DNA of 64,000 nucleotides, from positions 1,736,001 through 1,800,000 of the forward strand of contig NZ_CP045309.1 of the NCBI RefSeq assembly GCF_009671205.1, written 5' to 3'. Below, piece after piece: positions 36,235-54,760 of this stretch. The DNA comes from Micromonospora terminaliae (GTDB lineage: Bacteria; Actinomycetota; Actinomycetes; Mycobacteriales; Micromonosporaceae). How positions within the stretch are numbered: position 1 is the stretch's first letter; every line of letters begins with the position of its first letter. Both the position numbers and the translations under genes were made by a program. A model generated the notes under the pieces. The model saw only the letters and a list, made by a program, of their open reading frames with translations. It was not told where the DNA came from and did no database searches.

Positions 36235-36948
36235 CTATGGCGTCCTGGTGGTGGCCGACCGCCGAAGGGCTCTGTCGCAGGCCGCGAGGTGGCGGCCCAG
36301 GGCATCCTCGAAGCTGGTGGTCGTGGCATCGAACATCAGTTGCCGACGGATGGCCAGTTCTCTGCCGGACAGACCGCCCACCATCTCGGCGGTGGCGGTC
36401 AGGGCCGTGGCCAGGTCGTCGGTCACCTCGTCGACGAGGCCGAGGTCGAGACTGTCCTGCGCGTCCAGAGGGGCACCGAACAGAATCGCGCGGCGCAGCC
36501 GGTTCCCGCCGGACTGCTGTGCGAGCCGGAAGACCGCCATGCCCGGCCAGGTGGCGTCCCCGTCGACGTGCAGCGACAGCCGGACATCGGGGGTGGCGAT
36601 GCGGTAGTCCGTCGCCAGCAGGACGTCGAGGGCGAGGCCCCCGCAGTCGCCCGAGGCGACCGCGACGGTCGTGACGCCGAGGCGTTCGAGCCGGCGCAGT
36701 GCCCGCTCCCACTTGCTGACCAGCGCCACCTCCAGGCCGTAGGTCCAGTCTTTGCCGGGTGTACCGGTCACCTGCACCGCAAGCATGGTCGTGGACGTGT
36801 CCGACTCGGCAGCCGAGCATGCGGCTTCCACCGCGGCGACGGACTCCGTCGTCAGGGGTTTCGAGCCGTCGATGCGAAGGACGACGTCGCCTCGCGTGCC
36901 GTTGGCGGCGTAGTGCTCGCCCCGGCCGACGGTTTCCGCGCTCACCAC
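36235..36948 (-). CDS. dpgB: DpgB, enoyl-CoA hydratase-like partner of the type III PKS
   Basis: A 237-residue crotonase-fold protein. SKWERALRRLERLGVTTVAVASGDCGGLALD and LLATDYRIATPDVRLSL form the oxyanion-hole region and are typical of DpgB. In glycopeptide antibiotic pathways DpgB, with DpgD, raises DpgA turnover and helps cyclise/aromatise to 3,5-dihydroxyphenylacetyl-CoA. GTG starts at 36948 and 36945 overlap the dpgA stop, so the two are translationally coupled. A DpgD gene is not seen in the window. Confidence 0.9.
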   Translation of the reverse strand: MVSAETVGRGEHYAANGTRGDVVLRIDGSKPLTTESVAAVEAACSAAESDTSTTMLAVQVTGTPGKDWTYGLEVALVSKWERALRRLERLGVTTVAVASGDCGGLALDVLLATDYRIATPDVRLSLHVDGDATWPGMAVFRLAQQSGGNRLRRAILFGAPLDAQDSLDLGLVDEVTDDLATALTATAEMVGGLSGRELAIRRQLMFDATTTSFEDALGRHLAACDRALRRSATTRTP

Positions 36949-38105
36949 TGGATCAGCGCCGTCTCGATGGTGGAACCAGGACCCATGGTCATCAGCACTC
37001 CATAATCGCCCGGTACGGTAACTCTCTCCTGCTGGAGGCGTTCGTACGAGAAAATGAACGATCCGCTTGACACGTTGCCGTAGTCACGGAGGACGCCGGT
37101 GGTGTGCCGGACGTCGTGACGGTTCAGTCCAAGATTGACCGCGACCGCGTCGATCACCTTCTTTCCACCGGAATGCACGAGCCAGTGCGCGATATCGCTT
37201 CGATGCAGGCCGGTGTTCGCCAGCAGACGATCCGCGACGATTTCCGCGTGAGCGCCGACAACGTATGGGATCTGCGGGTCGAGGAAGAAGCTGAACCGGT
37301 TCTGGGTACTGTCCCAGTCGTAGCGCATGGCGTCGATCGCGTCGGGGATGATGCAGCTCGCGAACTTGAGGATGCGGGGACCACCAGGGGCGCCCACGGA
37401 GTCGCCGGCGGGACGGCCGACCACGGCCAGCGCAGCGGCGCCGTCGCCGAACAGACTGTTCACGACCGCGGTGCGCATGGTTGAGTCCAGGACGTAGGCG
37501 GCGGAACAGGCCTCGGTGCACAACACCACGGCCAGCTCGCCCGGGTTGGCCACGGACCAGCTCGACACCACGTTCAGGGCGTTGAGCCCCGCGTTGCATC
37601 CCATCCCCACGATGTCGGTCCGGCTGCAGTGCCGGTCGATGCCCAGCTCACGGATGAGCAGGGCACTGAGCCCCGGCGTGAGGAATCCGGTGGATGTCAC
37701 GCAGCATAGGTGGCGGATGTCGGCGATCGTCGCGCCGACGTCGTCCAGGCACGCCTGCAGGGCGCGCCTGCCCATGTCCACGGCGAGCCTCTTGTGCCGA
37801 TCGAGCAGGTCCGCCTGCGTCTCGAGAGCCGGGGTGCCGTCGGGCGCCGGGAGTGGAAGCTCCAGGAAGCGCCGGCGGATCGCGCTGTTGAGGAAGACGG
37901 AGCGGATCTTCGGGTCGGAGATCGCGAAGGTGTCCAGCAGGTCCTGCTGTGAGAAGGACGTGGCGGACGAGGCCGTGCCCACCCCGACAATTGTGGAGGC
38001 GTAGGGTGTGGGTGGGAGGATGGGAAACTCTGCTGCCAGGGTCCGATCGTATGGACTCTGGGTGTTCGCGATGTCAACGGTCACGCGCAGGTCGTCCTTC
38101 CGCAT
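36942..38105 (-). CDS. dpgA: DpgA, 3,5-dihydroxyphenylacetyl-CoA synthase (type III PKS)
   Basis: 387 residues from the ATG at 38105 (GAGGTGG upstream; a GTG at 38114 is an alternative). It is a chalcone-synthase-fold enzyme that condenses four malonyl-CoA units into dihydroxyphenylacetyl-CoA. The nucleophilic Cys is in IVGMGCNAGLNAL (C170). The catalytic His is in HWLVHSGGKKVIDA and the Asn in GNVSSGSFIF. Length and motifs match DpgA rather than plant-type synthases. It forms a two-gene operon with dpgB; dpgC and the aminotransferase are 14 kb away in another operon. Confidence 0.93.
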   Translation of the reverse strand: MRKDDLRVTVDIANTQSPYDRTLAAEFPILPPTPYASTIVGVGTASSATSFSQQDLLDTFAISDPKIRSVFLNSAIRRRFLELPLPAPDGTPALETQADLLDRHKRLAVDMGRRALQACLDDVGATIADIRHLCCVTSTGFLTPGLSALLIRELGIDRHCSRTDIVGMGCNAGLNALNVVSSWSVANPGELAVVLCTEACSAAYVLDSTMRTAVVNSLFGDGAAALAVVGRPAGDSVGAPGGPRILKFASCIIPDAIDAMRYDWDSTQNRFSFFLDPQIPYVVGAHAEIVADRLLANTGLHRSDIAHWLVHSGGKKVIDAVAVNLGLNRHDVRHTTGVLRDYGNVSSGSFIFSYERLQQERVTVPGDYGVLMTMGPGSTIETALIQW

Positions 38106-38659
38106 TTCAGCCACCTCGGCGTGCTTGACCGAAGCCGCATTGTGCTCGTTCTACGAGAATGCTGCCGGGGCCGCGGACGCTGCATCTTGGAGGTTGCCGG
38201 CGCGTCCGGTGGACCCGCAATCAGCGCAACGAAATGGCGAAGGAACACGACGGCAGCGCGTTCGTAAGATAGCGACAGGACCGTTCCAGGCGAGTCCGAG
38301 TAGTTGTCGGGATCGGCCACACCGCGTCGCGCACCGGGACGAGCTGAAACGCCACCTCAAACCGGCGAGGGTCTGCCCGCCGGATCCTGGCTGACGGTCG
38401 CCAGCAGGTGTGCCACTCCACCGCGTGCTGGGCGATCTTCGGGGCGAAGCCTGCGGCGGGTGCAACAGGCCGATGATCTGGTCGTGCAGCTGTGGGCCGA
38501 CCGCACGGGGCAGCAGCGCGGCCGCCAGCTCGTTGCGGCGTACGGCACCAGCGTGGTCAGCGACCTGGACGCGGTCCGGTGGCTCGAGCGTGGCGCCGTG
38601 ACCGGGGGCATGCGCTACGGAGTCACGTAACGGTCACCGGGCCGCGTCGGCGGCGCTGC
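38106..38659. other. 554-base stretch without a convincing gene
   Basis: Upstream region of dpgA. A plus-strand frame (38304-38630) ends in a protein-like stretch (QADDLVVQLWADRTGQQRGR), but it has no start site or known family. It could be a decayed gene. The region should also hold the dpgA promoter. No hairpin or repeat was found. Confidence 0.4.
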
Positions 38660-39169
38660 TCAGAGGCGGTAGTTGGTCTGGCTGAACGGGTCGCCCTTGG
38701 CGTGAGCGAACGCCTTGCTCGGGGTCACCTCGAAGACCACGATGTCCGTGTCGGGCATGTCGGAGACGACGGCGCCGTCCTTGATCTCGAGCTCCCATCG
38801 GCCGTCCCAGCGACCGCGGTAGAGCTCAGCGAGCTTCCGCAACAGAGCGTCGTCGGTGACCGGCGCGACGGTCCCCTCGACGGCCACGTCCAGCCCTCGC
38901 TCCCAGGCGGTGTCACCGGCGAGCACGAGCACGTGGGGATTGGCCTGGATGTTGGCGTACTTCACCTCGGTGCTGCCGGTGTGGAAGTAGACCTTGCTGT
39001 CATGGAACACCGGCACCATCGGCGTCGCGTGCGGACGGCCGTCCGGTCGCACGGTCACCACCCAGGCGAGCTCGGCAACGGCCAGCCTCGCCTCGGCCTC
39101 GGTCCACGGGACGGCCTGGCCGGCCTCGTCGCTGTAGCGCCGGTCGATGCGTTCGCTCGTCGGCCTCAT
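38660..39169 (-). CDS. PPOX-class (FMN/F420-binding) split-barrel protein
   Basis: 169 residues from the ATG at 39169 with GGAGGG upstream; the longer frame is unsupported. It is a pyridoxamine-phosphate-oxidase-like split barrel: LAWVVTVRPDGRPHATPMVPVFHDSKVYFH near the N-terminus, then GSTEVKYANIQANPHVLVL and KAFAHAKGDPFSQTNYRL at the end. Such proteins bind FMN or F420 and reduce small molecules. An F420/FMN-type LLM oxidoreductase lies 1.6 kb away on the same strand, consistent with local F420 chemistry. The substrate is unknown and it may not belong to the cluster. Confidence 0.8.
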   Translation of the reverse strand: MRPTSERIDRRYSDEAGQAVPWTEAEARLAVAELAWVVTVRPDGRPHATPMVPVFHDSKVYFHTGSTEVKYANIQANPHVLVLAGDTAWERGLDVAVEGTVAPVTDDALLRKLAELYRGRWDGRWELEIKDGAVVSDMPDTDIVVFEVTPSKAFAHAKGDPFSQTNYRL

Positions 39170-39318
39170 CAACCCTCCGCAAGTGATCGCCGTACGACGG
39201 TGGTTGAGAGACGTTAACACGATCGATGGGACAGCACCGTCGGCGTCGATGGCTGACACGCCGGACCCGGCCCGCCGGTCGGCCGGTTCGCTGGACCGGG
39301 GCGTCGCCGATCGCCGGC

Positions 39319-40533: not shown

Positions 40534-40795
40534 TCGAAGACTCGGCTCGCCCGTTCGAGCGCGCGGTCCGCCTCGGCGACGAGGCCAGAGCAGCTATCGA
40601 TGGTAGCCGTTGCGGCGAGGTTTTTCCGTGCGCGCGGATCGGTTCGTGGGCGCCTGCGGTCGTCCCGGCCCGGCCGACGGCGGCAGGGATGCACCCGCGC
40701 AGACCGACGGGCGCGACCGAACCGGCAGCGCCGCGTCGGTGCCGCGGCGCTGCCGGTTCATCGGGGCCTGCTCGCGTCGTTGTTCCACCCGTGAG

Positions 40796-41800
40796 TTATC
40801 GGGACAGCTCTGGTATCACCTTGTTGGTGAAGAGGTCGATGCTCGTCCGGTCGTAGGCCGCGTCGATGAATCGGGCGATCACGTAGCCGACGCCCATCCG
40901 GCCGGCCTCGGTGAGCTGCTCCACGATCTGTTCCGGCGTGCCGATCAGGCCCTCTGTCCAGTAGCCCAGGAGCGGCTCGAGCCTCTCGGGCGGCAGGAGC
41001 GGCTCGTAGTGGGCCCGGACCCAGGCCACCCGGTCGGCGACATCCTTCTCGGTCTCACCGATGGCCACGTTGAGCAGGACCGACCGGGTGATCGCGTCGA
41101 AGTCGGTGCCCACATCCCTGCAGTGCGCGGCCAGGACCCGGGACTTGTGTTCGAACCCGTCCAGTGACGCCCCGAAGTTGGTGTACTGCGCGTACTTCGC
41201 CGCGGTCCGCAGGGTCTTCTTCTCGCCGGAGCCCCCGATCCACAGCGGGATCCCGCCGTCCTGCAAGGGCAGCGGCCGGCTGATCGCGCCGTCGACCTGG
41301 TAGTGCTTGCCCATCAGGGTGGCCGACCCGGTCGTCCACATCTGTCGCATGATCTGGACGCCCTCGTCGAGCATGCCCAGCCGGTCGCTGACGCTGGGGA
41401 AGCCGTAGCCGTAGCTGCGCCATTCGTGCTCGTACCAGCCGGCGCCGATGCCCACCTCCAGCCGGCCGCCGGACATGACGTCGATGCAGGCCGCCATCTT
41501 GGCCAGGTAAGCCGGATTGCGGTAGCCCATGCACGTGCAGAGCTGCCCCAGCCGCACCCGTGAGGTGCACGCGGCGAAGGCCGCCATCATCGACCATGCC
41601 TCGAACGTCGGCTCATCGGATGGCGGATCGGTGATGAAGTGGTCGAAGACCCAGATCGACTCGAACGGCCCGGCGTCGGCGTCCTGGGCGAGATCACGTA
41701 TCACGTCCCACTGCTTGGTGACCGGTACGCCCCGGAGCTCGAAATCACCGCCTTGAGGGATGAACATACCGAACCGCATGTCTTGCAGCTTGTTCGTCAC
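40796..41800 (-). CDS. LLM-class flavin (probably F420)-dependent oxidoreductase
   Basis: About 334 residues from the GTG at 41800 (an AGAGGA site upstream; the ATG at 41779 is an alternative). It is a luciferase-like monooxygenase fold (TIM barrel): MRFGMFIPQGG, WVFDHFI, RLGQLCTCMGYRNPAYLAKMAACIDVMSGGRLEVGIGAGW, then IPLWIGGSGEKKTLR. This pattern is typical of F420-dependent LLM proteins. It follows the free condensation-enzyme gene by 97 bases on the same strand and may be co-transcribed with the PCP-C pair. It may carry out a reduction or oxidation on a biosynthetic intermediate. Confidence 0.85.
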   Translation of the reverse strand: MTNKLQDMRFGMFIPQGGDFELRGVPVTKQWDVIRDLAQDADAGPFESIWVFDHFITDPPSDEPTFEAWSMMAAFAACTSRVRLGQLCTCMGYRNPAYLAKMAACIDVMSGGRLEVGIGAGWYEHEWRSYGYGFPSVSDRLGMLDEGVQIMRQMWTTGSATLMGKHYQVDGAISRPLPLQDGGIPLWIGGSGEKKTLRTAAKYAQYTNFGASLDGFEHKSRVLAAHCRDVGTDFDAITRSVLLNVAIGETEKDVADRVAWVRAHYEPLLPPERLEPLLGYWTEGLIGTPEQIVEQLTEAGRMGVGYVIARFIDAAYDRTSIDLFTNKVIPELSR

Positions 41801-41897
41801 GAGGCACGTCCTCTTCTCGCGTCGCGCCGGATCGCCGTGCACGAAGCTGTCGTTGTCCTGAGCGAGGAAGACCCGGCCGCGGTGTCCGGACCGGGCG

Positions 41898-43253
41898 TCA
41901 TGCCAGGCCCGGTGAAGCATCCGGGGACGAGCTGAAGGCGCGGGCGATCTCGACGAATTCCGCGGCCATGGAGACGATGGTGTCCTCGCGGAAGAGGTTC
42001 CGCTTGTAGGCGACGGCGCCGATGGCATCGCCCGACGGGTCCATGTTCACGTCCCACAGCGCGCCGTCCGGGATCGCGGACGCCAGCTTCTGCGGCTTCA
42101 GCAGCCGGGTGATCTGCACGAATCTCAGGTCACCGGGCGCGTCCACGACCGGGTTCGTGGGCACGCTCTGGAACACCGTCGCGGCCGCGTTGTCGGCCAT
42201 TGCCGGGGCCATCAGCTCCGGCGCCTCGGCGAAGATCTGAATGGTCGGGATGTCGTGGGCGAAGGCCTCGAGACACGTGCGCCGGGTTCGCTTGAGCACA
42301 TCCCCGTATGACATGCATCCGGTGAGGTCCGTGCGCAGCGGTACGAAGTTGTAGAGCGAACCGACGGTCTCGTCGAAGAGCCCGCCGGCGCGGCCCGGCG
42401 TGAACGTCGCGGTCACCACATCCTTGGCGCCGGTCAGCCGATGCATGAGCAGCTGGTAGACCGCGGCGACGGCGATGAAGCGGGTGGCTCGGTTCGCCCT
42501 GGCCACGCGGTCCATGGCCGTCATCACGTCACGCGGGATCAGAAAGCGGTGCCGGGCTGTCGACTCAGCGAGGCCCATCGAGCGCGGCATGTCCGTCGGG
42601 ACCGCCGTGAACTGGGCGCCGTCCAGCCGGCGGCGCCAGTACTCGCGCGCTGTGGCCGACTCGGCAGCCGTACGCTCCCAGGTGCCGTACTCGCGGTACT
42701 GCCGGGTCGTCGGCAGGTCCGGAACGCGATGTCCGGTCCGGGCGGCGTAGCGGTTGGCCAGGTCCCGAATGATCACGTCCAGGGACTGTCCGTCGACGCT
42801 GATGTGATGTGCCATCAGGACCAGCACCGCGTCCCGGTCATCGAACCTGGCCAGTACGGCGCGCAGGAACGGCGACTCGTACGCGCTCATCGTCCCGGTC
42901 TCGACTTCGTGGATCAGCGCCTCGGCCGCATCCGCGCGGGCGTCCTCGGGAACGGCCGGGAAGTCCCGGACCTCGAGCCGGACCGGGCTCGGCGGCAGGA
43001 TCTCCTGGTACCGGTCGTCGGGCGGCCCGGCGACGCGCGTCCGGAGTGCCTCGTGCCGGGTCACGACGTCGAGGAGGGCGTCGCGCAGTACCTCACTGTC
43101 GACCGGCCCACCGGTGACGCGCCACGCGGTGACCGCGTGGTTGCGGCAGCCGAACGGACCGTCGTCGCCACCCCCGTCGAAGAGGCTGTTGAACGTCTGG
43201 TTCAGCGACAAGGGGGCCACTGCGGCCCGGCCCTCGGCGTCGGTTGTGGTCAC
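41898..43253 (-). CDS. stand-alone NRPS condensation enzyme
   Basis: 451 residues from the GTG at 43253, which overlaps the PCP stop (GTGA). It is a full condensation domain without A or T domains. The active-site motif HHxxxDG is intact (LMAHHISVDGQSLDV), preceded by PFLRAVLARFD and followed later by VGSLYNFVPLRTDL. Free condensation enzymes such as SgcC5 in C-1027 join a PCP-bound beta-amino acyl group to the enediyne core through an ester. By analogy this protein could attach an acyl group carried by the coupled PCP to the enediyne. That is inference from context; an amide-forming role is equally possible. Confidence 0.9.
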   Translation of the reverse strand: MTTTDAEGRAAVAPLSLNQTFNSLFDGGGDDGPFGCRNHAVTAWRVTGGPVDSEVLRDALLDVVTRHEALRTRVAGPPDDRYQEILPPSPVRLEVRDFPAVPEDARADAAEALIHEVETGTMSAYESPFLRAVLARFDDRDAVLVLMAHHISVDGQSLDVIIRDLANRYAARTGHRVPDLPTTRQYREYGTWERTAAESATAREYWRRRLDGAQFTAVPTDMPRSMGLAESTARHRFLIPRDVMTAMDRVARANRATRFIAVAAVYQLLMHRLTGAKDVVTATFTPGRAGGLFDETVGSLYNFVPLRTDLTGCMSYGDVLKRTRRTCLEAFAHDIPTIQIFAEAPELMAPAMADNAAATVFQSVPTNPVVDAPGDLRFVQITRLLKPQKLASAIPDGALWDVNMDPSGDAIGAVAYKRNLFREDTIVSMAAEFVEIARAFSSSPDASPGLA

Positions 43254-43621
43254 GCCTGCCTCCTGCTGGTCGCGGTGTGCTGCTGAGGGGGAGTCCGGTC
43301 CGGATCGGCCCCGAGATGCTGATCCAGTTCGGCGACGGTCGGGAAGTCGAACAACTGGTCGATCGACAGCTCCGACCCGAGCGCCTTGTTGATCAGGTTG
43401 ACCAGCCGCACGCCGTTGAGGGACTGGCCGCCGAGGTCGAAGAAGCTGTCGTCCAATCCCACCCTGGTCACGCCGAGGGCCTCCGCGAACAGCGTGCAGA
43501 GCGTCTCCTGCCGGGGCGTGCCGGGCGCCCGGTAGGCCGACGGATTGGCGAATACTGGTTCGGGCAGCTCCCCGGACGGCGCATGCGCGGCGAGCTGTTC
43601 CCGGGCGGAGCTGGAACCCAT
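43250..43621 (-). CDS. stand-alone peptidyl carrier protein
   Basis: 123 residues from the ATG at 43621. The carrier domain occupies residues ~35-110, with the phosphopantetheine site S67 in FFDLGGQSLNGVRL. It is preceded by a low-complexity N-terminus and followed by a short basic tail. It is translationally coupled to the free condensation enzyme, so it is probably that enzyme's donor carrier, comparable to SgcC2. Adenylation must come in trans, from the free A enzyme at 60534 or the A domain of the 47238 NRPS. Its divergent neighbour starts at 43852. Confidence 0.9.
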   Translation of the reverse strand: MGSSSAREQLAAHAPSGELPEPVFANPSAYRAPGTPRQETLCTLFAEALGVTRVGLDDSFFDLGGQSLNGVRLVNLINKALGSELSIDQLFDFPTVAELDQHLGADPDRTPPQQHTATSRRQA

Positions 43622-43851
43622 GCCTTTTCCCCATTCGCGAGCCCGGAACTGAAGGTCCTTTTGCAGGTCCCAACGTGGCAGGCGGCCCCACCAGGTGCAC
43701 CTCACGGATTGCCCTCGCCTCGGTCGTCGGGCGGGTGCCGCGGGCCGCGGGGCAAGCCCAGAGGTGCCGTGCGGGAGAGGACCGAGCGACCCTCGGCATC
43801 TAGGCAATCGTGGTTGCCGGCCGTTCCCGTCCCCTCCGAGGAGGAGTGGAA

Positions 43852-45504
43852 ATGACGCAGCAAGAAGCCCTGGAGACCTCCGGTACCGCTCGATGGTCCG
43901 GCGTCGTCGGGGAGGAGCGCCCACACGGCGATACGGAGGTCCTGGTCGAGCGCCTCTTCGCCGAGATGCTCGATGTTCCTGGCTTGCCGCGCACGGCCTC
44001 CGTGTTCGATCTCGGACTGGACTCGGTGTGGGTGACAGTCGCCTGCGCCCGCCTGGAGCAGATGACCGGGGTGCGGGTCAGGTTCACCCAGATCTTCCGG
44101 ACTCCCACCGTCGCTGAGCTCGCGGCATGGATCGATGCCAACCGCGACAAGGCGAGCAACGACGCGGGCGTACCCGCCGAGCCGTCGGCCGGCGAAGGCG
44201 ACGAGCTCGTGGCGATCAGTCCGATCCAGGCGGAGTCGGTGCCGCAGGAGATCGTGGTGGAGATCGCCTGGTGGTTCGACAGCGAGATCGACGCGACGGC
44301 TCTGGAGAGTGCCGCGACTGATGTTCACCGCCGTCATCAGGCGCTGCACGCCCGGTATCTCAGCGGGCCGGATCTTGGCCTGGCGGAGGTGCCGGCCGAC
44401 CCGGGACGGGTGGAGTTCCACCGGCTGGGCGATGAGGACACCGATCAGGCGGCGATCGAAGCGCTCAGGCGGACACTGCGGACGCCGCTGAGGGTCGACG
44501 AGGGGAAGGTGTGGCGGTGCGTGCTCGTGCGCAGCGGGCAGAGCGGACGCACCCTGTTCGGGCTGGCCGTGGACCACTCGGGCTTCGACGGCCGGTCGTG
44601 GGACATCGTGACGGCGGAGCTGCCGGTGGCCTACGCGGCGCGGGTGGCCGGGCGGACGCCGCGGTGGCCGGGCCGAACCGCCTCGCTCGCTGAGATGGCC
44701 TGCGACTTCCGCCGCCAGCTCACGTCGCCGGACATCGAGGCGCAGCGTCAGTACTGGCGCGACGAGCTCCGTGACCTCCCGGTCTGCCAGTTTCCCCGGC
44801 TCCGCAACGAGGCGGCGCAGACCCCGCCGAAGGCCGACGGCTCCCGGTACACGGCCCTGGGACCGGCCGTGTTGCGCAGCTTCCTCGTGCCGGAGTCGCA
44901 CCTGCGGCATTGGAACGACTACGCGCGGAACAACGGCATGCCGTCATCCGTGGCGGTGGCGGCGGTGTACGTGGAGTCCCTGGTCCGGGCGGGTGCGCTG
45001 CCGGACTTCGCGATGATGGTCCCGATCGCGAACAACTCCGGGGAAGTGATCGACCGGACGGTCACCAACCGGGTGGGCACCATCCTGCTGCGCCCGAACG
45101 GTCCGTCCCGCTCCGGCCCGCACCTCCTCGCGCGGATGCGCGAGTCGTATCAGCAGGCAATGGCGGCACGGGACGCTCTCCTCGCACCGAAGGACCTGGC
45201 CGACGTGCTCAGCGGCGCCGAGGGGACGATCCCGCTCGACCGGATGGTGGCGCTGAACTACAACTCGACGCCGAGCCTCAGCCTCAGTGGCGTCGACGGG
45301 ACCCTCGTGACCGAGGGCACCGCATTCGCCACGAAGACCTTCTTCGTCGTGATGCTCCTGGTGACGCCGTCCCCGGAGGGCCTCCACATCGGCTTGCAGG
45401 TGCGGACCGACCTGCACGACGCCGGCCTTGTCGATCAGATCAAGCAGCACTTCCTCGAGATCATCGAGGCTGGGCCGGAGCGGCTCGAATCGGGAGGCGC
45501 GTGA
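43852..45504 (+). CDS. NRPS carrier-condensation didomain
   Basis: 550 residues from the ATG at 43852, with GAGGAGGAG upstream. Residues ~25-100 are a carrier domain with S58 in VFDLGLDSVWV. Residues ~120-540 are a condensation domain. Its active site reads VDHSGFDG instead of HHxxxDG: the first His is Asp, but the second, catalytic His and the DG are kept. A later AMMVPIANNSGEVIDRTVTNRVG segment matches the C-domain bridge region. There is no A domain, so the T domain must be loaded in trans. It is divergent from the free PCP, with 230 bases between. Confidence 0.88.
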   Translation: MTQQEALETSGTARWSGVVGEERPHGDTEVLVERLFAEMLDVPGLPRTASVFDLGLDSVWVTVACARLEQMTGVRVRFTQIFRTPTVAELAAWIDANRDKASNDAGVPAEPSAGEGDELVAISPIQAESVPQEIVVEIAWWFDSEIDATALESAATDVHRRHQALHARYLSGPDLGLAEVPADPGRVEFHRLGDEDTDQAAIEALRRTLRTPLRVDEGKVWRCVLVRSGQSGRTLFGLAVDHSGFDGRSWDIVTAELPVAYAARVAGRTPRWPGRTASLAEMACDFRRQLTSPDIEAQRQYWRDELRDLPVCQFPRLRNEAAQTPPKADGSRYTALGPAVLRSFLVPESHLRHWNDYARNNGMPSSVAVAAVYVESLVRAGALPDFAMMVPIANNSGEVIDRTVTNRVGTILLRPNGPSRSGPHLLARMRESYQQAMAARDALLAPKDLADVLSGAEGTIPLDRMVALNYNSTPSLSLSGVDGTLVTEGTAFATKTFFVVMLLVTPSPEGLHIGLQVRTDLHDAGLVDQIKQHFLEIIEAGPERLESGGA

Positions 45505-45859: not shown

Positions 45860-45864
45860 CCGCC

Positions 45865-47100
45865 CTAACGCGCCAGGCTCTGGGCGAGTTCGCGCAAGGC
45901 GATCGTGCGCAGCAGGACCGAGAAGCCCGCGTGGGTACGCAGCGTGGACATGTCCCGCCACACCCTCTCGAGGCGCTCACCGTGCCGTATCGCACTCGAA
46001 CCCGCCGTGGGAAGGATGTAGTTCCCCATCGCCTCCCAGCACAGGTTGGCGGCCTGCAGGCAGATGGCCGAGAGGCGCAGGTCCGATTCCCTGGTCACCG
46101 CGGCCGGGCCCAGGGCGGCCGTGTGGCGCCACTGCTGGGCCGCGTTCAGCAGGGCGGCCTCGGCGGCGCCGATCATCCCGAAGGCGTCGCTGTACCACAG
46201 TTGGTAGTCCCGGTCCTGATAGCGGGGCACCACCGGCGGCACCATGGTCGTCCGGTCGCGCAGCAGGTCCTCGTACGCGTCGAGCGCACCCCGGGCCATG
46301 CCCACCGCCATGGAGCAGTTGAGCAGACTGATGAAGGCATGCAGGGCGCCACCGTATTCGGGGTTGCCGTGCAGCGTGCGTCCAGGCGTGCCCGACGTCG
46401 CGTCGTAATCGACGATCACCACCCCGGGTCGAGCCAGGTGATCGGGAACATGGCAGTTCGTCATCCTGACGCTGTGCGAACCGCTGCCTCGCAGGCCCAG
46501 TTGCTGTCCCCAGTCGTCCAGTCGCACCCACTGGCTCCGCGGTGCGACGAAGAGCAGCGGCGTCGGCGGTTGGCCACCCTCGGCGGGCATCAGCGTGTGT
46601 CCCATGAAGTGGGTGCCGTACGGCGCTCCGGAGCTGTACGGCCAGGTGCCGTTGACGGTCCAGCCGCCGTCGGCGGCGGGTACGGCGGTTCCGTTGGGTA
46701 CCGCGGTGCTGGGACAGATGAAGTCGCCGCAGCTGAAGAGCTCCGCCTGGGCCTGTTCGTCGAACACCGTGGCGGCCATGAGCGCGTGCGAGGCCCCGAG
46801 GCTGTACATCCAGCCGGTCGAGGAACAACCGCGGACCAGGGTCATGGCGACGCGCAGGAAGGCCTCGACCCCGAATTCGTACCCGCCGTAACGGCGGGGC
46901 ACCAGGATCCGGTAGAAGCCGTTCCTAGCGAAGCGCTCGTGGATGTCCTCGGCATAGAAGCCGCGCTCCTCCACCTCGGCCTGGCGTTCGACGAGCTCGG
47001 GAATCATCGCCTCCGCTCTCGCGATCACCTGCTCCGGGGTGAGGCCCGGTTCGGGCGGCGCGGGGAGGTCGAGTGCGGCGGTGTTCATGTTCGCGGTCAT
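45865..47100 (-). CDS. ACAD-fold flavin-dependent monooxygenase/dehydrogenase
   Basis: 411 residues from the ATG at 47100. It has an acyl-CoA-dehydrogenase fold: the N-terminal helical domain, then RILVPRRYGGYEFGVEAFLRVAMTLVRG, a beta domain (ADGGWTVNGTWPYSSGA) and RGSGSHSVRMTNCHVP, then C-terminal helices. The typical catalytic Glu of acyl-CoA dehydrogenases is not obvious, and the sequence looks more like the HsaA/group D flavin hydroxylases that use reduced flavin from a reductase. The E6-type flavin reductase could serve it. It is the last gene of the minus-strand operon with dpgC and an NRPS, so hydroxylation of a carrier-bound aryl or amino-acyl group is plausible. Confidence 0.8.
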   Translation of the reverse strand: MTANMNTAALDLPAPPEPGLTPEQVIARAEAMIPELVERQAEVEERGFYAEDIHERFARNGFYRILVPRRYGGYEFGVEAFLRVAMTLVRGCSSTGWMYSLGASHALMAATVFDEQAQAELFSCGDFICPSTAVPNGTAVPAADGGWTVNGTWPYSSGAPYGTHFMGHTLMPAEGGQPPTPLLFVAPRSQWVRLDDWGQQLGLRGSGSHSVRMTNCHVPDHLARPGVVIVDYDATSGTPGRTLHGNPEYGGALHAFISLLNCSMAVGMARGALDAYEDLLRDRTTMVPPVVPRYQDRDYQLWYSDAFGMIGAAEAALLNAAQQWRHTAALGPAAVTRESDLRLSAICLQAANLCWEAMGNYILPTAGSSAIRHGERLERVWRDMSTLRTHAGFSVLLRTIALRELAQSLAR

Positions 47101-47237
47101 TGACCATCCATTTCTACCGGGCACGATGCCGCGTGGTTCCTCGCGGGGCGACCGTTCGTCGTCACGGCTCCACCGTCGCCCGCCGTACCGATTTCGACCA
47201 CTTCGCGATTGCCGGCTCCCGCGCCGAGGGCCGGCGG

Positions 47238-50200
47238 TCAACGCATCCCGGCGACGACGGACGCCAGCAGCGACCAGTCCGTGGCTGCATCGTGTCCCAG
47301 CGCCAACAGCACGAGATCGGCGTCCTCTGCTGTCGCCCGCCAGGTGCGGAGCAGCCCGCGGTCGTGGCTCACCACCCACTGCGGAGCGTGCTCCGGCGGA
47401 TGCGAACCGCTCGGCGCGGGCGGTTCGACCGCCAGCACCTTCGGCCCGACGCCGATCCGCTCGCGCATCGTGTGGCTCAACTCGGCCGCCGTGGTCACGA
47501 GCTCACCGCACGCCGCCAGAACGGCGGCGCCCGGAGCATCAATCGTGGCCAGCCGCGCCGGGACGTCCTGCGGGCGCCCGTCGGAGATGTCGAGGATCGC
47601 CACCCTGAACCAGCGCTCGAACTCCGCCACCGCCTGCGCCGGCCAGGCCGCGTCCCCCTGAAGGAGCACCAGCGCGGATCGATCCGGACGACCGGACCAG
47701 CGAAGTGGCGGTGCGCCGGCGGCGAGCCGGGCCTGTCGGATCCGCTGTGCCTGATCGGCGGCCGTGGACGCGGCCACGATGTCGTCCAGACGAAGTTGAA
47801 CGCCCAACTCGCGCCGGACGAGGGCGCGAAGCTTCCAGGCGAGTCGCAGGTCTCCCGGCAGCTCGGCCCGGTCGTCGTCGCCGGCAACGGCACGCCACGC
47901 CTCGGTCATCCAGCGTGCTTCCGGGTCGCTCTCGGCGCCGTTCGGTCGCGGTGGCCTGATGCGGGCCAAAGCAGCCCGGTCGATCTTGCCCGTGGCGGTC
48001 AGCGGCATCGCGCTCATCAGCGCGTACGAGGACGGCACCATGTACGCCGGTAGCGCCTGGCGGGCATGCGCCGCGACTCGGCTCACCAGGTCCTGACCGA
48101 GACCTGGCTGCCGCGGTTGGAGGAACGCCACGATGCCTCTGCTGTCGCGGTCCTGGCCGGCCACCACGGTGGCGGCGAACGCGACGTCCGGATGGCCGCT
48201 GAGGACGCTCTCGATCTCGTCCGGTTCGATGCGATGCCCGCGTATCTTGACCTGGCGGTCGTTGCGGCCCCGGAGCTCCAACCGGCCGTCGGCCCGCCAC
48301 CGGGCGAGGTCACCCGTGCGGTAGAGCCGCCCGCCGTCGCCGCTCGGATCGGGCACGAAGCGCTCGGCGGTCTGCCCGGGCGCACAGATGTAGCCCCGGG
48401 CCACCCCGACACCGCCGATGTGGAGCTCGCCGACGACACCCGGCGGCACCGGCCGGCCGGCGGCATCGAGGATCCGCAGCCAGACGCCGGGTAACGGGCG
48501 GCCGACCGGGACGATCGGCGGCTGCGGCTGCCGCGGCAGTCGCTCGCACACGCCGTACATCGAGGCCTCGGTGGGCCCGTAGGTGTGCCAGAACTCCTTC
48601 GTGCAGGCGACCAGGCGGCTGGCGAGTTCGGGTGAGACGACGTCGCCGCCACAGGACACGGTCAGCTGCGGATCGCCCGGCCAGCCCGTGGCGAACAGGA
48701 TGCGCCACGTCATCGGCGTCGCCTGCATGACATCAGGCCGATGCCGTGCCAGCACGGCCTGCAGTTCTGCTCCGTTGCGGGCCTGGGCGCTGGTCGCGAG
48801 GATCGTCCGGCCGCCGCTGGTCAGGGCGAGGAAGGTCTCCAGCATCGCGATGTCGAACGAGATCGTGGTGACGGCGAGCAGCGACTGGTCCGGCCGGAAG
48901 TCAAGCAGCTGCCGGGTGGCGACCAGGCAGTTCGCCAGGCCGCGATGGGTCACCGCGACCCCCTTCGGCCGGCCAGTGGATCCAGACGTGTACAGCACGT
49001 AGGCCAGGGAGTCCGGGTGCGGCGGCTGGCCTCCCGCTGCCGGGACGGCCGCCAGCAGGTCGGACAACGGCACCAACGGTACGCCGAGTGCCGTCGCCCG
49101 ATCGGCCCGTAGGGTGCCGTCGATGATCACCCCGCCGCATCCGCTGTCACTGACGATGTACGACAGGCGCTCGGCGGGATGGTCCGGATCCATGGGCACG
49201 GCGGCCAGGCCGGCACGGGCGACTCCGAGCAGGATCGCCGGTAGCTCCACCCGGCGGGCCACGAGGATGCCGATCGGCGACTCGGCCGGGAGTTGGAGCG
49301 CGCGCAGCCCGGCTGCGATCCGGCTCGCCGCGTCGTCCAGGTCCCGGTAGGTGTGGACCACGTCGGCCATCACCACGGCCGGCCGGTCGGGCGTGTCGCG
49401 GATCCAACGATGGACCAGTTCGACCAGTGTGTCCTCGCCGCTCACGCCCGAGGTCGGCGCCTCCCACTCCGCGAGTCGCGCCCGGTCGGTTGGATGGATC
49501 ACGTCGAGCTCGCCGATCGGCCCGGCCGGACCGTGCACGAGTCCATGTAGCAGGGTCGAGTAGCTGCGGCCCATCCGATCGAGGGTCTCCTCGTCGAACA
49601 GCCCGACCGCGCCTCGCCACGCGCCGACGACACGATCCCTCCCGATCGCCACGTCGAACTCGAGCTCGTACGGTGAGTGCGCCACCGGCAGGTCGACCTC
49701 GCGCGTCACCATGCCGGCCCAGGCGGCGGGCGGCTCGGCTGCGGTGTCGCACCGGAAGCCGACCTGGACATCGACCTCGGCACCTCGTTCCGGGCGCAAC
49801 GCCCGCGACAGAAGCGCGTTCAGCGCCCCGGGATGGTCGACCGGCTGCGTCGCACTGACGTGCTCCGCCCGGAGCGTGTCCACCACCGAGGTGTGCTCGT
49901 CGAGGGGGTGGCGAAGGATCCGGATCTCTTCGGGCACGACCTGGAATTCGCCGGCTCGGGTGGGCTTCGGTGCGCCGATCAGGACGTCCGGCTCGCCGGT
50001 CTCGCGGAGGAGGAGGACGCGCAGGGCACACCGCAGGACAGAGGCCAGGGAGACACCGGTCTGGTCGGCGAAGCGTCGCACCAGTGTCGTCTGGCTCTCG
50101 TCCAGCGACCATGGCCTGGTGATCGATCGACCGTGACTGCGGCCGCGGCCACGGTTGGTGGGCCAAGCGACAGCTTGCGGTGCCGCGGGGAGGGCGCCGG

Positions 50201-50774
50201 AGACACCGTCGGGCGCGGGCGCGGCGTCGGTGGTCCGCTCCGCACCGTCCGGCTCGATCGGCGGCGTGCCGTCCGACGCACGTGGCGGGTCGGCGACCGC
50301 GGATCGGTACCGATCGCCCAACTCATCGAGCAGCCGCGCCGCCACGGACCGACCGCCCACCGCGGCGTGGATGGTCAGCGCCACCAGCGTGCTGCCGCCC
50401 TCCACCGGATACACGCCCACCCTGATCGCCGGTCGTCGGCTCAGGTCGAACCGTCGGTTCGCGTCGGCCGCGGCCACCGTGAGCGTGGCGTCCAACGGTT
50501 GGGTCACCCCGGCGACGAGCTCCACCGGCGACCCATCGCTCGGCACCAGCAGCGGTTCTCCGTCGACGTCGCGGAAGTGCCGTCGCAGCATGGCGTGGCG
50601 ACGCTGCAGGTCCGCGCATGCCGTGGCCAGCGCGGCAGGGACCACGTCACCCGCGACCAGGACCGCCTGGCAGTGTTGCAGGCCACCGGCCCAGAGAGTC
50701 GTCTGCTCGGCCAGATACCACGCGACCTGGCTGGCGCTCGGCCGCCATGTGGACGACGAGATGTCGTGGATCAT
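47238..50774 (-). CDS. NRPS: C-A with degenerate carrier and thioesterase-like tail
   Basis: 1178 residues from the ATG at 50774, with GGAGGAG upstream. A condensation-like domain (1 to ~430) has an altered active site, TIHAAVGG in place of HHxxxDG. The adenylation domain (~440-950) is complete: YTSGSTGRPKG, FDIAMLE, YGPTEA, YRTGDLARW, GRNDRQVKIRGHRIE and the A10 Lys in TATGKIDR. The following carrier-like segment reads ELPGDLRLAWKLRALV where GGDSL is expected, so the phosphopantetheine Ser is missing. The last ~150 residues resemble a thioesterase fold, but the GxSxG elbow reads AACGEL. By hand, the A-domain code reads D-I-L-Q-S-G-T-M-Y-K; the substrate is uncertain. It is likely to load a carrier in trans. 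Confidence 0.85.
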   Translation of the reverse strand: MIHDISSSTWRPSASQVAWYLAEQTTLWAGGLQHCQAVLVAGDVVPAALATACADLQRRHAMLRRHFRDVDGEPLLVPSDGSPVELVAGVTQPLDATLTVAAADANRRFDLSRRPAIRVGVYPVEGGSTLVALTIHAAVGGRSVAARLLDELGDRYRSAVADPPRASDGTPPIEPDGAERTTDAAPAPDGVSGALPAAPQAVAWPTNRGRGRSHGRSITRPWSLDESQTTLVRRFADQTGVSLASVLRCALRVLLLRETGEPDVLIGAPKPTRAGEFQVVPEEIRILRHPLDEHTSVVDTLRAEHVSATQPVDHPGALNALLSRALRPERGAEVDVQVGFRCDTAAEPPAAWAGMVTREVDLPVAHSPYELEFDVAIGRDRVVGAWRGAVGLFDEETLDRMGRSYSTLLHGLVHGPAGPIGELDVIHPTDRARLAEWEAPTSGVSGEDTLVELVHRWIRDTPDRPAVVMADVVHTYRDLDDAASRIAAGLRALQLPAESPIGILVARRVELPAILLGVARAGLAAVPMDPDHPAERLSYIVSDSGCGGVIIDGTLRADRATALGVPLVPLSDLLAAVPAAGGQPPHPDSLAYVLYTSGSTGRPKGVAVTHRGLANCLVATRQLLDFRPDQSLLAVTTISFDIAMLETFLALTSGGRTILATSAQARNGAELQAVLARHRPDVMQATPMTWRILFATGWPGDPQLTVSCGGDVVSPELASRLVACTKEFWHTYGPTEASMYGVCERLPRQPQPPIVPVGRPLPGVWLRILDAAGRPVPPGVVGELHIGGVGVARGYICAPGQTAERFVPDPSGDGGRLYRTGDLARWRADGRLELRGRNDRQVKIRGHRIEPDEIESVLSGHPDVAFAATVVAGQDRDSRGIVAFLQPRQPGLGQDLVSRVAAHARQALPAYMVPSSYALMSAMPLTATGKIDRAALARIRPPRPNGAESDPEARWMTEAWRAVAGDDDRAELPGDLRLAWKLRALVRRELGVQLRLDDIVAASTAADQAQRIRQARLAAGAPPLRWSGRPDRSALVLLQGDAAWPAQAVAEFERWFRVAILDISDGRPQDVPARLATIDAPGAAVLAACGELVTTAAELSHTMRERIGVGPKVLAVEPPAPSGSHPPEHAPQWVVSHDRGLLRTWRATAEDADLVLLALGHDAATDWSLLASVVAGMR

Positions 50775-50848
50775 CGCTCCTCCTTCCCCCCGGATGACCG
50801 GAGTGGTTGCACCAGCGGCTTGTCCGCGCAAGGCCGGCTCGGCGTCGC

Positions 50849-52162
50849 CTACAACGCATCGACGAAGTCGGCCAGCCGGGCGGCACCCTCGACGATCTCC
50901 TCATGCTCCAGCGCGGAACACGACAGCCGGATCCGGCGCTCGCCTCCCGGGCCGAGATGGAAGCCACGCATCGGGGTCCAGAGCACACCGAACGCCTCCG
51001 CGGAGTACCGCAGCAGCGCGTCGTCGGCCTCGACCGGAAGCTCGACCTGGACGAAGTAGCCGCCCTCGGGTGCCCACCAGCGAACCCCGGCGCCCGGCTG
51101 ATCGGGCTCGCCGAAGTGGTGGGCCAGCCGATCGAGGAGGACGTCGCGGTTGTCGCGCAGCCGGGCCGCCTTGGGCGCACCCAATGCGGCGATGGAGCCC
51201 CCGTGGCGAAGGAGAAGCCCGCCGATCAATGCCTGGGCCAGTGGAGACGTGTTCAGGGTGACCGCGTTCTTGGCGGCAGCGATCATGGCGGCCAGTCGCA
51301 CCGGCGGGCCAGGGCGCCGCTCGACCCACTGGTCCGCCACCACGTAACCCACCCGGGCGCCCGGCACCGCGACCTTCGCGAAGGTGCCGGTGTGTACCAC
51401 CCGGCCGTCTCGATCGAGTGCCTTGAGACTGGGCAGCCGGTCGTCCGAAGCGGCCGTGAAAGCGTACGGGTTGTCCTCGATCAGAATGAGGTCGAGGGCC
51501 GACGCCGTCGCCAGCAGGCGCTGGCGGGCGGCGAGCGTGAGCCGGTTACCCGTCGGGTTGGCGAAATCGGGGGACACGTACAGCGCCCGGAGGCGACGAC
51601 CCGCCGCCCTCTCCCGCTCCGAGGCCCTGCGCAGGGCGGCCAGGTCCGGGCCGGTGCCGTCGTCCGGCACCGGGTGGACCGCGATGTCCAGCGAGTCCGC
51701 CGCGGCGAGCACGCCCACGTAGGACGGATCGGTAACCGCCAGGCTGGCGCCCGGCGGATGGAGGACTCGCAGGGTGAGGAACAGCGCCTCCTGGCACCCG
51801 ACCGTCATGACGATCGCGTCGGGCGGGACATCGATGGCCTCGTCGACGCGCAGAGCGGCGGCAACCAGGTCGTTGATGATCCCTCTGCTGGGGCCATACT
51901 GGAACAGGTGCCGGCGCACCTCGTCCTCGCTGAGGCCGGCGGCGCGTCGCGCCTCGACGAAGGTGTCCAGCAGCGGACCGACCGTGATGTCCGCGAAGAA
52001 CGGCTCGTAGGGGGCGCCTGGTGCGAACGAGATCGCGTCGGGGAACTCGGCCACGATCTCGTTGAGGAAGGTCATGGCGGCGACCTGCCGGCTCGACACG
52101 CTGCGATGCAGGTCCTCGGCGTGCAGGTGCGCGGACGGGATCAAGGTTGCCGGCGCATCCAC
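50849..52162 (-). CDS. hpgT: PLP aminotransferase, HpgT/DpgT-like
   Basis: 437 residues from the GTG at 52162, which overlaps the end of dpgC by 22 bases; longer readings run back through dpgC. It is a fold-type I (class I/II, MocR-like) aminotransferase: DAISFAPGAPYEPFF, VGCQEALFLTLRVL, YVSPDFANPTGNRL, IEDNPYAF, and the PLP-Lys in HTGTFAKVAVPGARVGY. With dpgA, dpgB and dpgC in the window, it most likely transaminates 3,5-dihydroxyphenylglyoxylate to (S)-Dpg. It could also accept 4-hydroxyphenylglyoxylate, but no Hmo/HmaS genes for that route are seen. Confidence 0.88.
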   Translation of the reverse strand: MDAPATLIPSAHLHAEDLHRSVSSRQVAAMTFLNEIVAEFPDAISFAPGAPYEPFFADITVGPLLDTFVEARRAAGLSEDEVRRHLFQYGPSRGIINDLVAAALRVDEAIDVPPDAIVMTVGCQEALFLTLRVLHPPGASLAVTDPSYVGVLAAADSLDIAVHPVPDDGTGPDLAALRRASERERAAGRRLRALYVSPDFANPTGNRLTLAARQRLLATASALDLILIEDNPYAFTAASDDRLPSLKALDRDGRVVHTGTFAKVAVPGARVGYVVADQWVERRPGPPVRLAAMIAAAKNAVTLNTSPLAQALIGGLLLRHGGSIAALGAPKAARLRDNRDVLLDRLAHHFGEPDQPGAGVRWWAPEGGYFVQVELPVEADDALLRYSAEAFGVLWTPMRGFHLGPGGERRIRLSCSALEHEEIVEGAARLADFVDAL

Positions 52163-53445
52163 TGCTGCTCCAACCGATGTAGGACGTCCTGGCTGTAAAG
52201 CCGCTGTACCTGAACTTCCGCGAACTCGGCGAGGTAGCTCCGGAACTGGTCCTCGGTCTCCTCGAAGGCGGTGAGCATGTGCCGGTTGGCCACCACGGCG
52301 GCGTTGTCCATGGCTTGGACCGCCTGGCCGAGCGCGTCGTCGACCGCGTCCTCGGCCACCACGGCGTCGCACAGCAGCGCGGCGACCGGCTCCCGGGCCG
52401 CTATCCGCCTACCGCCAAGGAGGACCTGCCGAGCCAGCCTCGGGCCGAGGATGCGGCCGAGCCTGAGGTTGGCCGCACCGGGCACGATGCCCTCTCGTGC
52501 CGCCGGCAGCGTGAAGTAGGCCGTGTCCAGGCTGATCACGTAATCGAAGGTCAGCATCAGCTGCATGCCACCGCCGATGGCGAATCCGTCGACCACCGCG
52601 ATCCATGGCTTCCCGCCGCGGGACGCCGGGTCGGCCTCCTGCCGCGGATCCCACAGGCCACGCTGGATCTTGCTCAGATAGCCGATCTCCCGCTGCATGA
52701 CGAAGCCAAGGAAAGGGATCTGCCCGGCGCACAGGAGTGTGAGGTTGATTCCGGAGCTGAAGACCCGGCGACCGGCGTACCTCGGGTGCTCCATCACGGC
52801 GCCCCGCACCACGCCCACCCGGACGTCCGGATCCAGCAGGGCCAGGTCGACGGCGACCTCCAGCTGCTGTCCGAGGGGCTCGTCCTCCGCGTTGAGGTAG
52901 CGCTGGTTGGCGACGGTTATCTCGGCCACCCCGTCCGTACGCCGCACCGACACCACGGGCATCTCGACGACACCGGTCCGCTGGAACTCCGGCAGCCGCG
53001 ATCGGGCCTCGTCCGTCGGCAGCCGCTGTGAGCGCACGAGGTCGCCGCCCGCACCGGAGCCCAGCAGAGCGGAGTACGCGATGCCCTGGTCGATCTCGAG
53101 CCCCTCCTTGGCGCTCTGGCGGCGGGCACGTTCGACCTCCATCTGGGCGCGGTTGGGCGTCAGGCCCGGAACGATGTCGGCCAGGTGGTACGACAGCTCG
53201 GTCAACGAGAGCCGTTGGGGGCGCTCGCCGACGGCTTCGCGACAGAGCCGGTCCGATTGGGCGCTCAGCAGCCGGCGCCTCGCGGCTCGCGCGCGTCCAT
53301 GTGCCGCGGCGGCTCGGGCCCGCTGGTCGGGGTTGCGATCGGCGGGAGCGGGCAACGTCGACAACAGGTCGGCCACGCGAGCCGCGGCGGCCGTCACCTC
53401 GGCCCGTAGGCGGTCCCGCACCAGGGGTTTCGTTGATGGAGTCAC
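52141..53445 (-). CDS. dpgC: DpgC, cofactor-free dioxygenase of dihydroxyphenylacetyl-CoA
   Basis: A 434-residue protein with an extended helical N-terminus (~200 residues) and a crotonase-fold C-terminal half, the DpgC layout. Motifs: AVMEHPRYAGRRVFSSGINLTLL, WIAVVDGFAIGGGMQLMLTFDYVI (oxyanion hole) and TLPAAREGIVPGAANLRLGR. DpgC converts 3,5-dihydroxyphenylacetyl-CoA and O2 to 3,5-dihydroxyphenylglyoxylate without metal or flavin. The ATG at 53445 overlaps the P450 stop (ATGA), and its end overlaps the aminotransferase start, so P450-dpgC-hpgT are tightly coupled. Confidence 0.93.
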   Translation of the reverse strand: MTPSTKPLVRDRLRAEVTAAAARVADLLSTLPAPADRNPDQRARAAAAHGRARAARRRLLSAQSDRLCREAVGERPQRLSLTELSYHLADIVPGLTPNRAQMEVERARRQSAKEGLEIDQGIAYSALLGSGAGGDLVRSQRLPTDEARSRLPEFQRTGVVEMPVVSVRRTDGVAEITVANQRYLNAEDEPLGQQLEVAVDLALLDPDVRVGVVRGAVMEHPRYAGRRVFSSGINLTLLCAGQIPFLGFVMQREIGYLSKIQRGLWDPRQEADPASRGGKPWIAVVDGFAIGGGMQLMLTFDYVISLDTAYFTLPAAREGIVPGAANLRLGRILGPRLARQVLLGGRRIAAREPVAALLCDAVVAEDAVDDALGQAVQAMDNAAVVANRHMLTAFEETEDQFRSYLAEFAEVQVQRLYSQDVLHRLEQQWMRRQP

Positions 53446-54686: not shown

Positions 54687-54760
54687 GACGCCGTCCTCGC
54701 TGCTCAGTGGGACCAGCTTTGTACGTGGAATGGCCGACCTGCGTCGGTGCGGCTTCCGGG

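Follow-up and report, generated by a model that had tools for sequence, protein, structure and literature searches.

Enediynes are DNA-cutting antibiotics, a class used as drug payloads, and to our knowledge the nine-membered members carry tyrosine-, chorismate- or naphthoate-type arms. The building block 3,5-dihydroxyphenylglycine (Dpg) is known mainly from vancomycin-type antibiotics. Here we describe a 64,000-nucleotide stretch of Micromonospora terminaliae (GCF_009671205.1, genome of 6.74 Mb, code G000; NZ_CP045309.1 positions 1,736,001-1,800,000, forward strand; hereafter the window) in which Dpg pathway genes lie inside an enediyne locus. The two gene sets form one cluster, which we consider likely to make an enediyne, probably nine-membered, with a 3,5-dihydroxyphenyl unit. 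This points to an enediyne type whose product is, as far as we know, undescribed.

One close described system is the orphan cluster pks/nrps-7 of Micromonospora sp. AKA38, for which a 2023 report lists a nonribosomal peptide synthetase (NRPS), a type III polyketide synthase (PKS) and PksE in one cluster, as found here, and predicts an enediyne peptide ‘with an aromatic moiety’ (PMC9967187). The best hits listed for it were in Micromonospora sp. RP3T, M. inaquosa, M. orduensis, Micromonospora sp. M71_S20 and Phytohabitans suffuscus. The main text of that report contains no occurrence of ‘Dpg’ and does not name DpgA, and its available sections hold no comparative evidence. Among open-access papers that pair enediynes with Dpg, phenylglycine, DpgA or a type III PKS, it was the one report that we found directly relevant; neither phenylglycine nor type III is mentioned in the main text of PMC5181780. 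The initial annotation of this DNA regarded an enediyne with a Dpg-derived group as new. That holds only with a reservation, since the co-occurrence of type III PKS, PksE and NRPS in one orphan Micromonospora cluster had already been tabulated in the 2023 report.

Two characterized pathways offer further comparison. Assuming that we have the roles of the C-1027 (sgc) genes right (the SgcC1-SgcC5 branch and SgcF/SgcJ), the window shares with that cluster an iterative PKS, E10, an epoxide hydrolase, SgcJ, an SgcC5-related condensation enzyme, and a separate carrier and hydroxylase. The arm of C-1027 comes from tyrosine, whereas here it would come from a type III PKS through the Dpg pathway; the hydroxylases here are HsaA/XiaF-like, unlike those of C-1027, and an aminomutase was not searched for specifically. 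With the glycopeptide (vancomycin-type) pathway the locus shares DpgA, DpgB, DpgC and an HpgT-like aminotransferase. Unlike in that pathway, dpgAB are split from dpgC-hpgT, DpgD is absent from G000, no DpgC found outside its own type shares more than 54% identity with it, and no glycopeptide-like NRPS or cross-linking P450 set occurs among the genes scanned.

We compared eight loci with dpgA of the present type, seven from Micromonospora and one from Phytohabitans: G000, G048 (M. inaquosa), G070 (M. orduensis), G080 (M. profundi), G102 (Micromonospora sp. RP3T), G104 (Micromonospora sp. M71_S20), G144 and G324 (P. suffuscus). The genus search covered 160 genomes, and a family-wide search of 354 genomes added G324. 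In the window, four genes are assigned to the Dpg pathway at the family level:

36235-36948, minus strand: dpgB, putative enoyl-CoA hydratase of the Dpg pathway (NF042431, 326 bits)
36942-38114, minus strand: dpgA, putative type III PKS forming 3,5-dihydroxyphenylacetyl-CoA (NF042429, 648 bits)
50849-52372, minus strand: putative HpgT-like aminotransferase, class I/II, true start uncertain (PF00155, 91 bits)
52141-53445, minus strand: dpgC, putative cofactor-free dioxygenase of the Dpg pathway (NF042432, 483.7 bits)

The pairing of dpgA with dpgB in the initial annotation held up: their open reading frames (ORFs) overlap, and both scores are above the NCBIfam cut-offs (425 bits for DpgA and 140 bits for DpgB). 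Overlap lengths between neighbouring ORFs depend on start choice throughout, and those above 100 bp are probably overstated. The pair begins 0.3 kb from the SgcJ-like gene. Of the named hosts in the locus search, M. inaquosa has the closest DpgA (94%), followed by M. orduensis (92%) and then Micromonospora sp. RP3T (81%). DpgC scored below its cut-off of 530 bits; its best solved relatives were the DpgC structures 5kag and 2np9 (391 bits, with the next protein kind at 50 bits), and three DpgC motifs, whose functional roles we presume, are kept in all six loci with dpgC, save for conservative changes. Among the 120 matches listed of 656 in a protein-database search with DpgC, 16 showed at least 77% identity, with named hosts including Dactylosporangium and Actinomadura kijaniata, and the other 104 at most 54%. 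The HpgT-like protein belongs to the right family for the HpgT transaminase, a putative function, and is 41-47% identical to the aminotransferases that other Dpg loci encode no more than 10 kb from dpgA. M. orduensis also carries a second dpgA, dpgC and dpgD of another type (G070:C55:15802-19122).

The enediyne genes that the initial annotation placed beside the dpg genes are real by Pfam and structure matches, which cover the PKS, E10, the epoxide hydrolase and the SgcJ-like protein:

11580-12683, plus strand: DUF1702 protein beside the PKS (PF08012, 425 bits)
12680-18430, plus strand: iterative enediyne PKS, KS-AT-KR-DH (Pfam domains; full-length relatives include P0009, 83%, named enediyne polyketide synthase)
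18434-18856, plus strand: E10-type thioesterase (4i4j 242 bits, CalE7 226, DynE7 129)
18849-19436, plus strand: flavin reductase, which may act with the flavin hydroxylases (PF01613, 148 bits)
19674-21635, plus strand: UnbV/ASPIC protein of the enediyne cassette (PF07593, PF13517)
21632-22678, plus strand: conserved enediyne-cassette protein (no Pfam match; matches in 86 of 160 genus genomes)
22682-23476, plus strand: phosphopantetheinyl transferase (PF01648, 60 bits)
32873-34246, plus strand: flavin adenine dinucleotide (FAD)-dependent oxygenase-like protein, separated by 12 bp from the epoxide hydrolase gene that follows (PF01494, weak, 20.5 bits)
34259-35422, plus strand: enediyne-type epoxide hydrolase (5f4z 553 bits, 4i19 477 bits)
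35510-35935, plus strand: SgcJ-like protein (TIGR02246 119 bits; SgcJ 4i4k 168 bits)

The five-gene enediyne cassette is thus complete at 11.6-22.7 kb (PKS, E10, UnbV/ASPIC, UnbU-type and DUF1702). We take the DUF1702 protein to be of UnbL/E3 type and the 21632-22678 product to be UnbU, and the mapping of the names E3-E5 onto these genes is likewise our assumption. A five-gene cassette of E3/E4/E5/E/E10 is described as the mark of enediyne clusters in the main text of PMC5181780. Further enediyne genes lie right of the window, in the stretch L005 (L005:10521-16620, about window positions 74.5-80.6 kb), where we found a second DUF1702 protein (L005:10521-11528), a P450, a second E10-like gene, a response regulator and a kinase. 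The second E10-like thioesterase (L005 ~14160-14578, minus strand) is 63% identical to the first; related loci also hold such a gene, at 53-61% identity to the first E10 of the window.

An SgcF/NcsF2-type epoxide hydrolase together with SgcJ is typical of nine-membered enediynes, and both are present here. The enediyne is probably nine-membered; its epoxide hydrolase matches 5f4z and 4i19, presumably enzymes of nine-membered enediynes. The main text of PMC5181780 gives the presence of E2 and absence of R3 as the nine-membered criterion; the two DUF1702 proteins are about 41% identical, in G000 and in the other core loci checked including G324, and are separable into E2 and R3 only with reference sequences. 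A search for the chromoprotein apoprotein (PF00960) gave no match in G000, a partial match in G080 and two matches in Amycolatopsis sp. WAC 01376 (G361), the latter on contigs other than that of its enediyne locus. The apoprotein occurs in 7 of 21 predicted nine-membered clusters and is hence optional (main text of PMC5181780).

Between and around the dpg genes lie candidates for the coupling and oxidation of an aromatic unit:

40796-42028, minus strand: luciferase-like flavin monooxygenase (PF00296, 166 bits; 72-85% identity in the seven other dpg loci)
41898-43664, minus strand: SgcC5-like free-standing condensation enzyme, start uncertain (4znm/4zxw, 404 bits)
43810-45504, plus strand: carrier-protein and condensation didomain (PCP-C), candidate carrier of the aromatic unit (PF00550, PF00668)
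45865-47379, minus strand: two-component flavin hydroxylase, HsaA-like (PF08028; 2rfq 112 bits; 65-82% in the seven other dpg loci)
47238-50831, minus strand: NRPS with a C domain that has lost its catalytic motif and an A domain (Pfam; code DILQVCTMY)
55863-57044, minus strand: two-component flavin hydroxylase, HsaA/XiaF-like (2rfq 183 bits, XiaF 161 bits)

The SgcC5-like protein, whose domain spans about residues 139-583 of the reading, matched 4znm/4zxw at 404 bits, whereas the next-best structure reached 102. These structures are SgcC5 of Streptomyces globisporus (available text of PMC11186497), a free-standing condensation enzyme that makes an ester bond in C-1027 biosynthesis (available text of PMC10051162). 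The HHxxxDG motif of the SgcC5-like protein is kept in all eight loci, and its identity to the G000 protein is 60-80% in the seven other dpg loci and 34% in G094, a locus in which no dpg genes were found. The longer motif HHxxxDX14Y (available text of PMC10051162) was seen by eye in this protein and also fits the C domain of 57238-60537, so it does not discriminate. The SgcC5-like protein is the likely enzyme for joining the aromatic unit to the enediyne core. Both hydroxylases have the acyl-CoA-dehydrogenase fold; the 55863-57044 type is 81-95% identical in six of the seven other dpg loci, and G070 has only a 28% match.

The dpg and enediyne genes form one cluster. The same block occurs in all eight loci, in four arrangements. 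Each of the seven other loci has dpgA, dpgB, the 45865-47379-type hydroxylase, SgcC5-like, PCP-C and luciferase-like genes, together with the epoxide hydrolase, the FAD enzyme, SgcJ and a solute-binding-like gene (L005:8218-9558), and dpgC, hpgT and the adenylation gene are present in five of the seven, all but G144 and G324. SgcJ stands 14 bp before dpgC in G080 and G102, G104 has a single close run of SgcJ-dpgC-hpgT-A-hydroxylase-SgcC5-like-luciferase, and in G324 dpgA overlaps the SgcC5-like gene. The G048 and G070 loci are colinear with G000 over about 98 kb, save that G070 is without three genes between dpgC and the NRPS. A chance neighbourhood or an assembly artefact was rejected in view of this colinearity and of the presence of the block in another genus, Phytohabitans.

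Whether the Dpg half lay beside or inside the enediyne locus had been left open in the initial annotation, and the second of these is correct. Enediyne genes stand on both sides of it in G000 (PKS to SgcJ at 11.6-35.9 kb, DUF1702 to kinase at about 74.5-80.6 kb) and so continue past the window, and relatives of the right-hand set adjoin the core in G094; the Dpg half therefore lies inside. The gap between dpgA and the UnbU-type gene is about 14.3 kb in G000, 14.1 kb in G048, 13.4 kb in G070, 17.3 kb in G080 and 19.9 kb in G144. In G102, whose first core has lost its UnbU-type gene, the gap is 61 kb, yet the PKS of that core begins about 8 kb from dpgAB. In G324, dpgA is 84% identical to that of G000 and E10 lies at 22.6 kb.

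G102 has a pair of enediyne PKS genes from different lineages, separated by 42 kb (G102:C96:130793-137500 and 173024 onward). UnbV is gone from its first core, as are most of UnbU and most of E10. A remnant core of G000 type in G104 (G104:C1:3010026-3011700; E10 88%, a flavin reductase in two pieces, phosphopantetheinyl transferase 65%, PKS absent) lies beside PKS-like genes. In G324 (G324:C1:7499048-7590000), several genes run over two frames and a single stop interrupts dpgA, which could reflect decay or an indel-rich assembly.

We found that the dpg block shares its history with the epoxide hydrolase and not with the core, and that it holds together as cores change. In a tree of 97 distinct DpgA sequences, whose rows did not include the second copies from G070 and G086, the eight from enediyne loci grouped as a single clade (support 98/99). 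The epoxide hydrolases of the dpg loci also formed one clade, among 11 sequences of which only 2 lay outside; their identity to the G000 enzyme is 82-92% in the seven other dpg loci and 55-56% in G094 and G361, and the corresponding values for the FAD enzyme are 82-92% and 55-57%. By contrast, a one-clade tree for the core PKS of dpg loci was rejected (p-AU 3.7e-57; quick tree, 42 rows). These cores (nine rows, two of them from G102) occupy three positions in the tree, one being the G000 type together with G094, another G102b/G144 and the third G104b. They need four changes, three of them forced by strongly supported branches, in a count that leaves out P0004 and P0009, near-copies of two dpg loci, and the PKS of unknown dpg status P0005-P0008 and P0010. 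G094 has a core PKS of 82% but an epoxide hydrolase of 55%, whereas G104 and G144 have cores of 64-65% but an epoxide hydrolase of 88%. That the hydrolase follows the dpg block is expected if it prepares the attachment site of the aromatic arm.

The proposal of a single cluster in the initial annotation is supported by the interleaving of dpg and enediyne genes in differing loci, by the SgcC5-like gene in the same groups and by a block that follows the epoxide hydrolase. It had named as grounds for rejection related enediyne loci that always lack the dpg half; the related loci do not always lack it, yet the close core of G094 (82%) is without it and that of G104 is split from it. On balance, we lean towards a transferable peripheral cassette (the dpg genes, epoxide hydrolase, SgcC5-like enzyme and flavin hydroxylases), combined in evolution with three different core lineages and occurring in two versions, one for Dpg and one for 3,5-dihydroxyphenylacetate, which would define an enediyne family with a type III PKS-made aromatic arm. 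Such a dihydroxyphenyl arm would be a new peripheral group on enediynes. The shared cassette suggests that the coupling enzyme, the core-opening hydrolase and the arm travel together, and the matching of core to arm is thereby testable in M. inaquosa, M. orduensis and M. profundi.

From the gene families, we propose the following pathway. The core PKS and cassette would build the enediyne core. DpgA and DpgB would convert malonyl-CoA to 3,5-dihydroxyphenylacetyl-CoA, DpgC would convert this to the glyoxylate and the HpgT-like enzyme the glyoxylate to Dpg. The adenylation protein 47238-50831, whose own C domain and carrier look dead, would activate the amino acid and load a separate carrier, probably PCP-C. 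In its C domain, HAAVGG (HAVLGG in G070) replaces HHxxxDG in all six loci with the gene. Pfam detected no carrier domain in this protein, and a carrier-like motif contains no serine in three loci (G000, G048, G070); in G104 one lies nearby, and in G080 and G102 the motif is unaligned. Loading in trans seems likeliest, because the protein lacks a Pfam carrier while PCP-C keeps its carrier serine in all eight loci. The HsaA/XiaF-type flavin hydroxylases, with the cluster flavin reductase, may oxidise the tethered ring; the epoxide hydrolase would open the core epoxide, and the SgcC5-like enzyme would esterify the tethered unit to a hydroxyl of the opened core.

Several observations weigh against this pathway or against its Dpg-bearing product. 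No product is known, and the Dpg-derived group on it is our prediction. DpgD gave no match above the cut-off anywhere in the G000 genome, nor in G048, G080 or G104, and in G070 only at another locus; it lies on the cluster contig only in G102 (about 22 kb from dpgA) and G144 (about 33 kb from dpgA). SgcJ alone does not mark dpg loci, as it is 74% identical in G094, where the second hydroxylase, the epoxide hydrolase and the FAD enzyme also have relatives, at 51-55%. The A-domain code DILQVCTMY differs from DPYHITTLC, the code of the final module in the glycopeptide NRPS of G361, a module that presumably takes Dpg; this weighs against simple activation of Dpg, although a diverged code or oxidised Dpg is possible. 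G144 and G324 are without dpgC and hpgT. In G104, dpgA is about 490 kb from the UnbU-type gene and about 480 kb from the nearest core PKS found. Finally, G361 has an enediyne locus about 30 kb from the dpgABC of a glycopeptide-like cluster (G361:C25:170001-290000).

Some of these points would fit a variant of the proposed pathway, which we regard as possible though doubtful, in which the unit is another branch product (3,5-dihydroxyphenylacetate, the glyoxylate or a heavily oxidised ring) and not Dpg itself. Besides the A-domain code, dpgA and dpgB occur in all eight loci but dpgC and hpgT in only six, and an HsaA-like hydroxylase and luciferase-like oxygenase occur in all eight, with the second hydroxylase in seven. 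Because they lack dpgC and hpgT, G144 and G324 should make 3,5-dihydroxyphenylacetate, which would serve as the unit in these two of the eight loci. In G000 and five others, however, dpgC, the HpgT-like gene and the adenylation gene stand in one close group, as expected for an amino acid.

That the window holds two adjacent clusters, one for an enediyne and one in which the NRPS genes make a separate Dpg-containing peptide, is improbable. G361 provides a precedent, the distant G104 core fits, and long NRPS/PKS genes run on beyond the window. Yet the enediyne tailoring genes lie within the same gene groups as the dpg genes, the SgcC5-like gene is inside the block, and the epoxide hydrolase and FAD enzyme track dpgA and not the core. 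The G361 DpgA groups with Amycolatopsis sequences, outside the enediyne-locus clade, and the cluster around it contains a halogenase, a glycosyltransferase, P450s (two scanned), a C-A-PCP-C-TE protein and larger NRPS genes. A heptapeptide multi-module NRPS with cross-linking P450s, as seen in G361, was not among the genes scanned around dpg in G000; a glycopeptide cluster beside an enediyne is thus true of G361 and rejected for G000. G361 is a warning that neighbourhood alone does not mean one cluster.

A general link between dpg and enediyne genes was also rejected. DpgA scored above the cut-off at 21 loci in 19 of the 160 genus genomes, 7 of them of the enediyne type; of the other 14, only G126 has a UnbU-type gene within 100 kb, at about 67 kb from its other-type DpgA (G126:C1:5428950 and 5496811). 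The DpgA locus search took the best 80 of 236 relatives, 77 of them outside L007-L009. No PKS, E10, UnbU, epoxide hydrolase or SgcJ match occurred in the flanks fetched around these 77 (up to 10 kb per side, some shorter). A UnbU-type protein was present in 14 of 48 genomes bearing such relatives (from 50 of the 77 loci), and only in G361 did it share a contig with dpgA at a distance of up to 100 kb, although contig breaks could hide others.

A decaying dpg branch absent from the enediyne of the strain is very improbable: DpgD is missing in G000, a partial DpgD-like match adjoins the G104 block, and the G324 dpgA stop and decayed first G102 core would fit, but dpgA, dpgB, dpgC and hpgT span 90-100% of the query in G000, G048, G070, G080, G102 and G104, and in these six genomes dpgA and dpgC are without stops and the checked dpgC motifs are kept.

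The remaining genes of the right-hand part of the window are as follows:

53442-55319, minus strand: cytochrome P450, ORF too long at the 5' end (PF00067; in only two of the seven other dpg loci)
54761-56026, minus strand: zinc-type dehydrogenase (PF08240, PF00107; of the seven other loci only in G048, with a fragment in G144)
57238-60537, plus strand: NRPS, PCP-C-(degenerate A)-PCP (Pfam)
60534-62129, plus strand: stand-alone adenylation enzyme (PF00501, 236 bits; 82-92% only in G048, G070 and G324)
62119-62925, plus strand: thioesterase (PF00975, 126 bits; also 65% in G094)

The initial annotation had joined dpgC, the HpgT-like gene, a P450, a dehydrogenase, NRPS and flavoenzymes in a second operon. 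These genes are all present, but the divergent PCP-C gene (43810-45504, plus strand) interrupts the group. The A3 motif of 57238-60537 is degenerate in G000, G048 and G070 and intact in the 51-52% relatives of G080, G102, G104 and G144. Beyond the window, L005:2565-9558 and L006:143-18260 hold a carrier protein, two PALP genes and one ornithine-cyclodeaminase-like gene, which we take to be a diaminopropionate-type set, followed by NRPS/PKS genes. These are kept in G048 and G070 and partly in G324. Within the window, an ORF at 30924-31643 (plus strand) resembles, by what we take to be its motif, an IS200/IS605 TnpB-type protein.

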